From Maribacter caenipelagi (lineage in GTDB: Bacteria; Bacteroidota; Bacteroidia; Flavobacteriales; Flavobacteriaceae), in NCBI RefSeq assembly GCF_004364175.1, contig NZ_SNZW01000017.1, positions 124,001 through 188,000 on the forward strand: 64,000 nt of DNA. Reading direction: 5' to 3'. The position numbers were made by a program, and so were the translations under genes. Positions within the stretch are counted from its first letter, which is position 1. Each line of letters starts with the position of its first letter. Of the stretch, positions 24,477-27,952 are shown piece by piece. The notes under the pieces are model-generated. The model did no database searches. It was not told the origin of the DNA and was given only the letters and a program-made list of their open reading frames with translations.

Positions 24477-27400
24477 TTATCCTACGATATTGACAATCTT
24501 ACCAGGCACAACAATTACCTTTTTAGGTGTTCTACCTGCTAGTTGCTGTTGGGTTTTTTCATTTGCCATTACCGCTGCTTCTATTTCATCTTTAGATAAA
24601 TCTAAAGAAAGCTCTAAGGTGAACTTCATTTTACCATTGAAAGATATCGGGTATTCTTTACTACTTTCTACCAAATACTTTTCTTCAAACTTCGGGAAAG
24701 TCGCAGTTGCTATAGATTCAGCATGACCCAACTTACTCCAAAGTTCTTCTGCAATATGTGGGGCATAAGGTGACACCAAAATTGCCAACGGCTCTAATAC
24801 TTGTCTGCTCACACATTTCTGCGATGAAAGCTCATTTATACAAATCATGAAAGTAGATACCGAAGTATTGAAACTGAAATTCTCAATATCCTCCTCTACC
24901 TTTTTAATGGTTTTATGCAAGGTCTTCCAAGAGTCTTTAGAAGGCTCATCTTCAGTTACCAAAAATGATACGTTCTCCCCTGTATGAAACTGTCTCCATA
25001 ATTTCTTTAAGAAAGAATGTGTTCCTGTTATACCCGCCGTGTTCCATGGTTTTGATTGCTCTAACGGACCTAAGAACATTTCATACAAACGCAAACTATC
25101 TGCACCGTATTCCTCACAAATAGCATCAGGGTTTACGACATTGTATTTAGATTTGGACATTTTCTCGACTTCGCGACCTACTTTGAAAGAACCATCCTCT
25201 TCCGTTATGAACTCTGCATCGGAAAATTCATCTCTCCACTTTTTGAAACCTTCAATATCAAGTTCATCGGAAGCATTTATTAATGAAACGTCTGCATGTA
25301 ATGGCGAAAAGTTTTTCCAACTAGCTTCAACAATATTTCTACCGCCAGGTTTAGAGGATAAAGATTCAATCAATTGTTTTAAGTTTTTAGAATAATCGTC
25401 TAAGAAACCCTTTTCATTAATAGCTTTCTGAATAATATCTTGAGAAATAAAAATTGGTTTTTTAATATAATTCTGATTCCACCTATAAACAAACGCACTA
25501 GTCCCCGTAATCATTCCTTGATTGATCAACTTCTTCGCAAACTCATCTTTAGGCACCAAACCTTTATCGAACATGAACTTTTGCCAGAATCGTGAATACA
25601 ACAAGTGACCTGTTGCGTGCTCACTACCACCTATATATAAATCTACATCTTGCCAGTAATTAATCGCTTTTTGTGAGAATATTTCTTCGCTATTATGCGG
25701 ATCCATGTATCTATTAAAATACTGAGAACTACCAGCCCAACCTGGCATGGTATTCAACTCAAGAGGCCACACGGTGGCATTATTTATCTCATTGTTATCT
25801 ACAACTTTATTTGCAACGGTATCCCATGCCCAAACCTCAGCATTACCCAAAGGTGGTTCACCGGTTTCAGTAGGTAAATATTTTTCAACCTCTGGCAACT
25901 CAATTGGTAAATGTTCTGGAGAAATCATCTGCGGCATTCCGTCTACATAATACACCGGGAATGGTTCTCCCCAATATCTTTGACGACTGAAAACAGCATC
26001 ACGCAATCTATAGTTTATTTTTCCTTCACCATGTCCTATTTTCTCCAACTCATAGATTGCTAATTTCATAGCTTTCTTATACGGAAGACCATTTAAGAAA
26101 TCAGAATTTGCAATGACAGTCTTATCCTTGTCAGCAAAAGCTTCTTCAGAAATATCAACGCCTTCAAATATGTTAGGAATATCGATATTGAAGTGTTTCG
26201 CAAAATCATAATCGCGCTGATCTCCGCATGGAACGGACATTACAGCACCTGTACCGTAACCTGCCAATACATAATCACCAATCCAGATAGGAATAGGTTC
26301 TTTTGTAAATGGATGTTCTGCATATGCACCCGTAAAAGCACCTGAAATAGTCTTCACATCTGCCATACGATCACGCTCAGAACGTTTTGCAGTTGCTTCT
26401 ATATACGCTTCTACTTCAGCTTTTTGTTCGGCAGTGGTTATTTTAGAAACCAACTCATGCTCTGGCGCCAAAGTCATAAATGACACTCCGAAAATGGTGT
26501 CAGGGCGAGTTGTGAAAACCTCAATCCCCCTAGCCCCCGAAGGGGGAATATTTTGTTGTTCCAAATGAGCCTTTATCTCTTCTAAAACACCATCAATATT
26601 TCCAATTACTTTTTCATTTTTAAATCTTACGACTTTATAACCTAAACCATTTAAAACTTTAGTTCTTTTTAAATCAGCTTCCTTTTGAGTTTCATGAATT
26701 TCCCCATCTACCTCAATTACCAATTTTTTAGATAAACAAACGAAGTCTACTATGAAATCATCTATTAAATGTTGTTGCCTAAACTTATAATCTAGTTTCT
26801 TAGATTTTATAGACTCCCAAAGAACTGATTCAGCAGCAGTAGGATTAGCCCTCATTTCTTTTGCTCTATCAAGCAACAAATGAGAATTATTACCTCCTGT
26901 CATATATCCAGGTGCAGTCCCTTCCCCTTTGGGGAAGGTTAGGATGGGGAACGTGACTGAAGCTCCTTGACTTCTCCCTATCCAATTGGTCTGCGAATCT
27001 TTTAAAGGTTGTGGCCAATCTATCTTATCCAATCCATCTAACAAACGCTGTGCGTATGCAGAAATACGCATACTCCACTGGGTCATTTTTTTACGAACAA
27101 CCGGGTGACCACCACGTTCTGACACTCCGTTTACGATTTCGTCATTCGCCAATACCGTACCTAGTGCCGGGCACCAGTTTACCTCGGTATCCGCCAAATA
27201 TGTTAATCGATATTGTAATAGTATTTCTTGTTTTTTAACATCAGAAAAAGAATTCCATTCATCCGCAGAAAATGATACTATATCATCATCACATACGGCA
27301 TTTACATTGGCGTTTCCATCCGAAGAAAATTTAGAAATCAAGGTTTCTATATCTTCCGCCTTATCGGTTTCTTTATTGTACCAAGAATTGAAAATTTGAA

Positions 27401-27818
27401 TGAATATCCACTGTGTCCACTTGTAATAATCGGGACTAGATGTTCTAACCTCTCTACTCCAATCGAAAGAAAAGCCTAATTGATCTAGTTGTCTTCTATA
27501 GGTTTTAATATTTGCCGCTGTAGTAACAGCCGGGTGCTGACCTGTTTGAATAGCATATTGTTCTGCAGGTAAACCAAAAGAATCGTACCCTTGCGGATGC
27601 AATACATTAAACCCTTTATGCCTTTTATAACGCGCATAAATATCACTTGCAATATAGCCCAACGGATGCCCAACATGTAGCCCCGCACCAGACGGATAAG
27701 GAAACATATCTAACACATAGAATTTTTCTTTATCAGAATCGTTCTCTGCTTTAAATGTTTGGTTTTCTGCCCAGTATTTTTGCCATTTGGCTTCAATTTC
27801 GTTGAAATTGTATTGCAT
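24477..27818 (-). CDS. leuS: Leucyl-tRNA synthetase with inserted DUF559 nuclease-like domain
   Basis: The 1113-residue class I synthetase charges tRNA-Leu. The HIGH-equivalent is 'HVGHPLGY' near residue 48, the KMSKS loop is 'EKMSKSKYN', and editing-domain motifs are 'FTTRPDTIFGVSF' and 'GTGAVMSVPCGDQRDYDFA'. Between 'GRSQGASVTF' and 'IEVFTTRPDT' sits an extra block of 141 residues (291-431) whose core matches DUF559. Without it the enzyme would be of ordinary Bacteroidota length. The frame is intact throughout. The start is ATG 27818 because a -7 box lies at 27845-27852, downstream of the other candidate start at 27863. All synthetase motifs are present, so the enzyme is probably active despite the insert. 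Confidence 0.95.
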   Translation of the reverse strand: MQYNFNEIEAKWQKYWAENQTFKAENDSDKEKFYVLDMFPYPSGAGLHVGHPLGYIASDIYARYKRHKGFNVLHPQGYDSFGLPAEQYAIQTGQHPAVTTAANIKTYRRQLDQLGFSFDWSREVRTSSPDYYKWTQWIFIQIFNSWYNKETDKAEDIETLISKFSSDGNANVNAVCDDDIVSFSADEWNSFSDVKKQEILLQYRLTYLADTEVNWCPALGTVLANDEIVNGVSERGGHPVVRKKMTQWSMRISAYAQRLLDGLDKIDWPQPLKDSQTNWIGRSQGASVTFPILTFPKGEGTAPGYMTGGNNSHLLLDRAKEMRANPTAAESVLWESIKSKKLDYKFRQQHLIDDFIVDFVCLSKKLVIEVDGEIHETQKEADLKRTKVLNGLGYKVVRFKNEKVIGNIDGVLEEIKAHLEQQNIPPSGARGIEVFTTRPDTIFGVSFMTLAPEHELVSKITTAEQKAEVEAYIEATAKRSERDRMADVKTISGAFTGAYAEHPFTKEPIPIWIGDYVLAGYGTGAVMSVPCGDQRDYDFAKHFNIDIPNIFEGVDISEEAFADKDKTVIANSDFLNGLPYKKAMKLAIYELEKIGHGEGKINYRLRDAVFSRQRYWGEPFPVYYVDGMPQMISPEHLPIELPEVEKYLPTETGEPPLGNAEVWAWDTVANKVVDNNEINNATVWPLELNTMPGWAGSSQYFNRYMDPHNSEEIFSQKAINYWQDVDLYIGGSEHATGHLLYSRFWQKFMFDKGLVPKDEFAKKLINQGMITGTSAFVYRWNQNYIKKPIFISQDIIQKAINEKGFLDDYSKNLKQLIESLSSKPGGRNIVEASWKNFSPLHADVSLINASDELDIEGFKKWRDEFSDAEFITEEDGSFKVGREVEKMSKSKYNVVNPDAICEEYGADSLRLYEMFLGPLEQSKPWNTAGITGTHSFLKKLWRQFHTGENVSFLVTEDEPSKDSWKTLHKTIKKVEEDIENFSFNTSVSTFMICINELSSQKCVSRQVLEPLAILVSPYAPHIAEELWSKLGHAESIATATFPKFEEKYLVESSKEYPISFNGKMKFTLELSLDLSKDEIEAAVMANEKTQQQLAGRTPKKVIVVPGKIVNIVG
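26526..26549 (-). repeat. Palindromic end of the DUF559 element (C-terminal side)
   Basis: On the plus strand it reads CCCCCTAG then CCCCCGAAGGGGG, a hairpin with 5-bp arms. It encodes the residues IPPSGARG at the exit of the insert. Its outer part resembles the other end in inverted orientation. Confidence 0.7.
26526..26948 (-). mobile_element. In-frame DUF559 element with palindromic ends inside leuS
   Basis: This block of 423 bp (141 codons) replaces a short hairpin at the entry to the LeuRS editing domain. It encodes a DUF559 domain (LeuRS residues about 318-415). 'NPTAAESVLWESI' is followed by 'FRQQHLIDDFIVDFVC' and 'LVIEVDGEIHE', a PD-(D/E)XK-like core with Asp358, Glu369 and Asp371 present, then 'GYKVVRFKNEKVIGN'. 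DUF559 belongs to the Vsr-like endonuclease group. GC-rich inverted palindromic sequences bound both ends and are translated. No intein splicing motifs (Cys/Ser at the start, HN at the end) are present. Mobility is inferred from the structure, not shown. Confidence 0.75.
26918..26950 (-). repeat. Palindromic end of the DUF559 element (N-terminal side)
   Basis: On the minus strand it reads CCCCATCCTAACC, then CCTTCCCCAAAGGGGAAGG, a hairpin with 8-bp arms. It is translated as PILTFPKGEG. The order (C-run, CCTAACC-like box, C/G hairpin) mirrors the opposite end. Confidence 0.7.
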
Positions 27819-27844
27819 GATCTTTACTTCTTTTCTGTAAGTCG

Positions 27845-27852
27845 CAAAAATA
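27845..27852 (-). promoter_or_regulatory. -7 promoter box TATTTTTG for leuS
   Basis: TAnnTTTG match on the minus strand, 26 bp before ATG 27818. It decides the leuS start. Confidence 0.6.
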
Positions 27853-27952
27853 GGTTGAATCAATGAGAGTTAAAAAGATATTGGTAATTAACAGTTTTAC
27901 TTCACCAAACTAAAAGAATATTGCCTATTTCTAAATTTGGTATCTTAGAATC

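Follow-up and report, generated by a model that had tools for sequence, protein, structure and literature searches.

Selfish nucleases that reside in genes have been thought to need splicing, as introns or inteins, to spare the host. We describe a DUF559 nuclease block in the leucyl-tRNA synthetase (LeuRS) gene of Maribacter caenipelagi that seems to do without it, the element being short, in frame and found in surface loops only. Several described systems resemble it in part. I-Bth0305I is described in a review as an EDxHD homing endonuclease with an extended multi-domain DNA-binding structure (PMC3943268). Its catalytic domain (PDB 3r3p) is homologous to that of the block in sequence and fold, and it is likewise carried inside host genes; however, it is a named mobile intron protein, whereas the block nuclease stays in the host protein and has only 141 codons. 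Inteins also lie in frame in conserved enzymes and can contain a nuclease able to drive homing, but the block has neither a splicing domain nor splice residues. The ShiLan domain of phage DNA methylases, an unspliced insert described in 2025 (PMC11855218), is reported to read through in frame, to be thought retained in the protein, to contain a nuclease gene and to have an intein-like distribution. Its HNH nuclease is encoded out of frame in phage methylase hosts, whereas in the LeuRS-type element the nuclease itself is the in-frame domain, the hosts are essential bacterial enzymes and the ends are hairpins.

Intragenic REP and Rickettsia palindromic elements resemble the block in another way, since they are palindromes placed in frame in housekeeping and repair genes with the frame kept, and such REPs, tRNA synthetase genes included, were described in 2013 (PMC3733652). 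They differ in spanning about 20–82 residues and in the GTAG or CGTC tag of the REPs, and the available text mentions no nuclease. The WHO elements of yeast home into the aldolase gene without protein splicing, but are reported to replace the 3′ end of the host gene at each integration (PMC7282813). Among the titles and abstract openings returned by searches of an open-licence PMC library, which lacks most subscription journals, none described in-frame DUF559 elements in host enzymes, and domain databases may already list such architectures.

The DUF559 block of LeuRS and its hairpin ends

The window, that is, the whole 64,000-nucleotide stretch of DNA analysed, contains the features collected in Table 1. 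The full LeuRS open frame (24477..27863, minus strand) encodes 1128 amino acids from the first start codon, and alignment with relatives points to Met16 as the likely start. In a profile search, the protein scored 887.6 bits against TIGR00396 leuS_bact (cut-off 548.4). The block consists of 423 nucleotides, with the translation PILTFPKGEG...NIPPSGARG, and stands where the Thermus thermophilus LeuRS (1h3n) has approximately six residues in the alignment (about 237–242). A first-pass annotation, made from the sequence alone, had delimited these 141 in-frame codons at the entry of the editing domain correctly to the base. It had also identified the domain as DUF559, which the PF04480 match bears out (120 bits against a cut-off of 20.6; E = 5.3e-35; amino acids 332–434), and its Asp358, Glu369 and Asp371 are the right residues in the 1113-aa numbering (373, 384 and 386 in the 1128-aa numbering used below). 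The occurrence of an in-frame DUF559 block in LeuRS is far beyond chance.

Table 1. Features of the leuS locus in the window
Feature	Coordinates	Strand	Evidence
leuS, leucyl-tRNA synthetase with embedded block, 1113 aa from the likely start	24477..27818	minus	TIGR00396 and relatives
In-frame 141-codon block in place of a beta-turn loop at the CP1 editing-domain entry	26526..26948	minus	Empty loops of relatives and 1h3n alignment
DUF559 (PF04480) Vsr-like nuclease domain; conserved D373, E384, D386 and H390 (1128-aa numbering)	26562..26870	minus	Profile
Left terminal repeat: C-rich tail TTCCCCATCCTAACC, then hairpin TTCCCC-AAA-GGGGAA (stem 26922-26936)	26919..26951	minus	Sequence; fold -8.4 kcal/mol
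Right terminal repeat: hairpin CCCCC-TTC-GGGGG (26534-26546), then tail CTAGGGGG	26526..26548	minus	Sequence; pattern match

The third-position GC content is 0.18 in the block core versus 0.32 in the host gene, a difference absent from the first-pass annotation. The genome is 99.99% complete and has a single full-length LeuRS match, so that the filled copy must function unless the insert is removed. Inteins begin with Cys, Ser or Thr and end with His-Asn, followed by Cys, Ser or Thr. At the block junctions there are no such splice residues, as had already been observed; the first residue is Pro, the last is Gly and Ile follows. Neither a group I nor a group II intron was detected, with no Rfam intron family at E values up to 1; the top match was a frameshift site (20.2 bits, E = 0.66; gathering score 70). 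Modelling of full-length LeuRS gave a poor structure (pLDDT 66.9, pTM 0.39), and no result rests on it. A search of the same genome identified three DUF559 loci: the LeuRS block, a free-standing gene (L002) and a Vsr-like gene (L003).

The two terminal repeats of the block are C/G-rich and inverted in orientation, a feature that had escaped the first-pass annotation. The first codon of the left repeat (TTC, 26949–26951) falls outside the block as delimited there. The end-to-end match of this copy is short; its score of 11 falls short of 14, the shuffled 99th percentile, which 86 of 129 in-gene elements reached. In these 129 elements, the folding energies were −7.1 versus −4.2 kcal/mol at the left end and −6.7 versus −4.1 kcal/mol at the right end, relative to mononucleotide-shuffled sequence. 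Among 168 elements, free-standing ones included, the mean end-to-end score was 17.5 within the same element, 13.8 against other elements in the same host gene and 9.1 after shuffling, in scoring windows that contain host sequence as well. When in-gene elements were tested in pairs, 70 of 117 matched better with their own end (Wilcoxon p = 5.6e-4). This excess stems from LeuRS (37/58), IleRS (9/10) and MetH site b (4/4), and no excess was present in the RecG (11/27) or RecB-like-helicase (3/7) elements, a result that is expected if the elements of these groups have one recent origin, and that gives no support either.

The tail-plus-hairpin pattern occurs at 10 distinct places in the window's genome (overlaps merged, the right end of the block included), versus 0 in the reversed control. 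Some of these places are closely spaced inverted pairs beside genes or at gene starts, and the free-standing gene L002 lies inside an array of six C/G hairpins of alternating orientation. The REP/RAYT tag GTAG or CGTC is absent at the block ends, which read CCTAACC-hairpin and hairpin-CTAGGGGG.

Occurrence in Bacteroidota and conservation of the nuclease

In 36 genomes of the genus, LeuRS was filled in five (G000, G002, G016, G025 and G027), without the block in 30 (28 loops read by script, together with G012 and with G030, the last alone judged from match coordinates) and unreadable in one (G028, in which the loop was not covered). The domain is not universal, being found in five of the 35 readable genomes, and its tree is discordant with that of LeuRS, so that the finding named in the first-pass annotation as refuting its view, a domain common to all relatives and passed on vertically, did not arise. 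RecG was filled in G001, G006, G017, G023 and, on a cut contig, G027; a further 30 genomes had an unfilled RecG, and none was found in G025. DUF559 also occurred in frame in the MetH of G027 and in the type ISP restriction enzyme of G016. When a profile built from eight in-gene inserts was searched against 397 genomes of the family, all 54 matches of at least 156 bits, from 45 genomes, lay in open frames of 573–1287 amino acids: 25 in LeuRS, 14 in RecG, 11 in MetH, two in IleRS and two in HisD. The next match (136.6 bits) was to a 121-aa frame with stops. In one of the 25 LeuRS genes (G400), the N-terminal part lies outside the open frame.

We pooled the genus and family inserts with the best 80 of 576 loci from a scan of one genome per species. 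The pooled set contains at least 173 DUF559 places differing in insert sequence, and its host counts are counts of a collected sample, not frequencies: at least 58 in LeuRS, 28 in RecG, 16 in MetH (at three sites), 10 in IleRS, eight at the N-terminus of HemD, seven in a RecB-like helicase, four in ValRS, two in RecJ and two at the C-terminus of HisD, with at least one each at a second LeuRS site, in type ISP, HsdR and a CoA-transferase, and at the N-termini of Gmk and RnpA. At least 31 were free-standing, and one had no host assignment. The host names were assigned by motif and agreed with profiles for the 14 representatives rechecked; the helicase is best read as RecB-like, scoring under curated cut-offs. 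Among the best 80 loci, 76 belong to Bacteroidota and four (L125, L132, L151 and L152) are labelled as lying outside it, of which L125 may be mis-binned.

The search for the block in other proteins, proposed in the first-pass annotation, thus succeeded for RecG, MetH, IleRS, ValRS, RecJ and others. The central idea of that annotation, that a selfish nuclease gene has settled in an essential protein as an additional domain in frame, gains both support and breadth. That view had the nuclease gene right, but not its solitude, since the gene has inverted hairpin ends and recurs at a few fixed sites across Bacteroidota.

The predicted active site is conserved almost without exception. D373, E384 and D386 were present in 130 of 130 in-gene inserts and H390 in 129. 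Because part of the sample had been found by motif patterns, a fairer count uses the loci from other searches, in which the three acidic residues were present in 59 of 59 inserts and H390 in 58. Omega (dN/dS) was 0.051–0.208 in all 15 pairs with a usable dS (18 pairs, picked for closeness, were asked for; one was missing and two were saturated). The invariant catalytic residues and these low ratios indicate that the nuclease is kept by selection and fit poorly with the earlier description of the block as a tolerated extra domain. The target of that selection may be the spread of the element or a benefit to the host.

By profile, the nearest solved structures were 3hrl (E = 4.5e-31) and I-Bth0305I (3r3p; E = 5.1e-7). 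A model of the block (129 residues, pLDDT 82.8) predicts the catalytic fold and an N-terminal helix, with TM scores, on the target, of 0.87 for 3hrl, 0.79 for 3r3p (Foldseek E = 6.3e-5) and 0.49 for Vsr (1cw0). The long DNA-binding region of EDxHD homing enzymes is absent from the 141-codon block, the model of which contains nothing beyond this fold and helix. Mitoribosomal proteins also match the fold of the block, at E values of about 0.01.

Transfer, descent and loss of the inserts

The insert tree was built from 169 inserts and 132 columns by a quick method with SH-aLRT support only, and 79 of its 166 inner branches are open. Host-site labels change 26 times on this tree, against a shuffled mean of 101.8. 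The RecG inserts formed one clade (98, starred), the RecB-like-helicase inserts were nested within the LeuRS inserts (95 and 96, both starred) and the inserts at two sites of one MetH paired together (90). The LeuRS inserts showed nine changes, at least three of which are forced by starred branches. This clustering by host site, together with the label changes, suggests an element that is faithful to its sites and occasionally jumps. In the LeuRS host tree (87 rows, 58 with and 29 without the block; insert excluded; quick method), the LeuRS hosts of G002 and G016 were sisters (100, starred), and their inserts fell into two different starred clades. These comparisons demonstrate, at the level of sequence, that inserts of this LeuRS loop arose more than once and that the element has jumped to other host genes.

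The LeuRS genes of the window and G025 sit in a 20-row clade (100, starred) with 18 unfilled alleles, 16 of which have the canonical 15-residue loop and no scar. The G025 gene is joined to three empty alleles (99, starred), and its insert is sister to that of the window (99, starred) and 95% identical to it. The flanks of the two filled alleles agree at 28 of 36 and 33 of 45 nucleotides; the best matches among the 18 other alleles compared, to empty alleles of the genus, reach 35/36 and 40/45 for the window and 33/36 and 44/45 for G025. The nine nucleotides beside the left end are identical in the two. Between these alleles, the insert has a pS of 0.20, whereas the flanks next to it reach 0.49 and 0.82; more than 60 codons upstream of the insert, pS is again low (0.22–0.38). 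G025 is a 68%-complete assembly in which leuS has stops downstream of the insert, and the stretch compared is unaffected. The comparison reveals that LeuRS alleles which, by their flanks, come from separate lineages within the genus have inserts in common.

The flank and synonymous differences between the window and G025 are best accounted for if only the element moved, taking a few adjacent bases along at one end; no long co-conversion tract was seen in these flanks. Such edges are sharper than gene conversion typically leaves, and they suit transposition no less than homing. Aligning leuS from relatives, as the first-pass annotation had suggested, identified the 30 alleles without the block, but it could not define the exact empty site, because the original loop residues have been lost from the filled alleles. 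No target-site duplication was definable in filled versus empty alleles.

Since the pairs in the first dN/dS comparison had been picked for closeness, the age test was repeated on all same-site pairs with a host pS below 0.60. In 20 such pairs, the insert was significantly younger than its host in four (two LeuRS and two RecG), older in one and no different in 15. Of 132 control windows in host genes, eight were low and four high, and the comparison of 4/20 with 8/132 is borderline (p = 0.054); as the excess of young inserts is only borderline, much of the inheritance looks vertical. None of six RecB-like-helicase pairs differed from host age. Insert and host distances are correlated (Mantel r = 0.53 for LeuRS and 0.45 for RecG), and nearest neighbours in insert and host agree in just 15 of 56 cases for LeuRS and nine of 27 for RecG. 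Taken together, the age test, the distance correlation and the poor nearest-neighbour agreement are best explained by vertical descent with episodes of transfer.

The element has also been lost. The LeuRS gene of G017 retains a lone hairpin, and the RecG genes of G002 and G008 retain a remnant of the right end, where the other 23 of the unfilled RecG sequences inspected have HKN(E/Q)(F/Y/I)PPHIL. Allele comparison identifies the lone hairpin and the RecG remnants as scars left by losses of the element. The same LeuRS loop hosts a TERSRSD-coding palindrome in G006, G008 and G023, and this palindrome is dispersed in five of six genomes searched. The presence of other repeats suggests that the loop is generally tolerant, and survivorship alone accounts for part of the site fidelity.

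Mode of spread and competing explanations

The best reading, which we consider probable though well short of certain, is that the block is an unspliced, palindrome-bounded, homing-like mobile element, maintained in frame as a domain of essential proteins. Sequence comparison establishes the inverted hairpin ends of the family and the presence or absence of the element at fixed sites, and it supports mobility; the nuclease would be the driver. The block would be part of the translated LeuRS, as a surface domain attached to the hairpin of the editing domain. The predicted nuclease, either within the host protein or internally initiated, would cut or nick DNA where the element is missing or at its hairpin ends, and the element would be installed when the break is repaired from a filled copy, as in homing. 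A constitutive essential host gene would provide expression without a promoter of its own, and in-frame insertion limited to loops would let the host survive. Several observations count against this reading: the block has no long DNA-binding region, no target-site duplication could be defined, the two ends of the copy in the window match poorly, RecG and RecB-like-helicase elements have no own-end excess, the window and G025 alleles differ little farther upstream as well, and much of the descent looks vertical. We give slightly less than even chances to the further proposition that the block represents a homing element of a new class: a selfish, unspliced nuclease that is obliged to live inside genes, passes from species to species into fixed loops of essential enzymes and stays there as a permanent protein domain. 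It may be active while still joined to LeuRS, RecG or MetH. If true, essential housekeeping enzymes would double as homing endonucleases, with no need for intron or intein splicing. The reach of the element extends across a bacterial phylum and to enzymes as central as LeuRS, IleRS, ValRS, RecG and MetH.

Because of the sharp edges at the leuS site of the window and the hairpins, direct transposition has to be weighed as a rival, unlikely on balance yet a real contender, in which another enzyme, either a Y1/HUH transposase or the recombination machinery of the host, moves REP-like palindromes with DUF559 as a passenger. The tail-plus-hairpin places elsewhere in the genome, some of them inverted pairs, speak for it, as do the palindromic REPs reported in frame in tRNA synthetase and other genes (PMC3733652). 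Y1_Tnp matches were present in six of 11 carrier genomes searched, and one C/G hairpin adjoins two of four Y1 loci examined, but the other two had no such hairpin and Y1_Tnp was not found in five carriers (G001, G006, G017, G023 and G025, of which G023 is 82% and G025 68% complete), for which a helper enzyme could still serve. Moreover, one would not expect the active site of a passenger to stay invariant, with omega values of 0.05–0.21, across many lineages. Such constraint would suit a domesticated domain, recruited as a help to LeuRS and the other hosts, for instance as a nuclease-based defence or regulator. Several hosts act in DNA repair or restriction (RecG, RecJ, the RecB-like helicase, HsdR and type ISP), and a Vsr-like DUF559 protein of Caulobacter is reported to be responsible for an SOS response in a methylase mutant (PMC12907096). 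Domestication nevertheless appears improbable: it accounts for the constraint, but not for the patchy presence in close relatives, whose empty loops are clean. Unrelated enzymes carry inserts of this kind as well, and PADLOC returned only a weak match to a homing-endonuclease model (E = 4.5e-5) and a marginal one to DpdF (E = 0.023).

Two other explanations fare worse. Hairpin-bounded inserts that undergo programmed bypassing are known from other systems, and the hairpins at the block ends could be taken as a sign that the block is removed, by bypass or as a hidden intron or intein. The junction residues, the Rfam result, the open frame and the protein-level selection on the codons make removal very improbable. 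Scarcely credible is an old, vertically inherited single insertion with many losses, even though insert and host distances correlate and the RecB-like-helicase inserts look vertical. It conflicts with the clade of the window, in which 18 of 20 LeuRS rows are unfilled, 16 of them with a canonical, scarless loop, and with the sister hosts carrying inserts of different clades and the forced changes among LeuRS inserts; for the copy in the window, the host tree and flanks rule it out.

The homing-like reading is relevant to how old proteins acquire new domains and to where LeuRS tolerates insertions close to its editing site. As filled, empty and scarred alleles coexist in one genus, direct tests of how a parasitic protein domain is gained, what it costs and how it is lost become possible. 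A phage vector was considered and rejected, one scan having returned 28 weak viral-contig relatives with at most 53% identity in the best segment. Matches in a viral structure library were phage DUF559, Vsr-like and homing-endonuclease proteins, a sign of kinship only.

Repeat families in the LeuRS insertion loop

A palindrome coding VTERSRSD, distinct from the DUF559 block, occupies the same LeuRS loop in three genus members (L039 in G006, L041 in G008, and L048 in G023), and dispersed copies of it were found in five of the six genus genomes searched. The loop therefore accepts several repeat families. In the LeuRS of G011 (L027), a further repeat-like stretch, SSELKVETGNSSLITPNSSLF, lies inside the same loop. 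A DUF559 block was also located at this loop in a metagenome-assembled genome assigned by its label to a different phylum, Candidatus Paceibacterota (L151); the LeuRS of this genome is very divergent, and the label is possibly due to mis-binning. Upstream of KMSKS, the alignment with several genus members was interrupted at a second stretch of LeuRS; the LeuRS frames of these members are of differing length.

Features located in this part of the analysis
Feature	Position	Strand	Protein position	Basis
AGGAGGT with in-frame TTG	window 26877-26898	minus		block sequence
Free-standing DUF559 gene in hairpin array	L002 1319-2571 (G000:C7)
Alignment-breaking LeuRS stretch	window 25320-25475		aa 797-848 (1128-aa numbering)	comparison with genus members

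DUF559 units in other host proteins

Two DUF559 inserts were encoded at different sites of a single MetH (L230, G249), and they paired with each other in the insert tree (support 90). Another insert was found within a type ISP restriction enzyme (L061, G016), which additionally contains two short peptides that appear to be hairpin-encoded. N- or C-terminal DUF559 fusions occurred on the housekeeping genes encoding HemD (L222-L229), RnpA (L062), guanylate kinase (L137), and HisD (L219-L220), although some of the N-terminal fusions could be artefacts if the translation starts are separate.

Free-standing and potentially independent nuclease genes

Within the LeuRS block, an in-frame TTG is preceded by AGGAGGT 12 nt upstream; judging from this motif, an internal start that would free the nuclease from LeuRS is conceivable. 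The free-standing DUF559 gene in the same genome (L002) lies within a hairpin array whose six C/G members alternate in orientation, an arrangement reminiscent of the REP arrays around RAYT genes.
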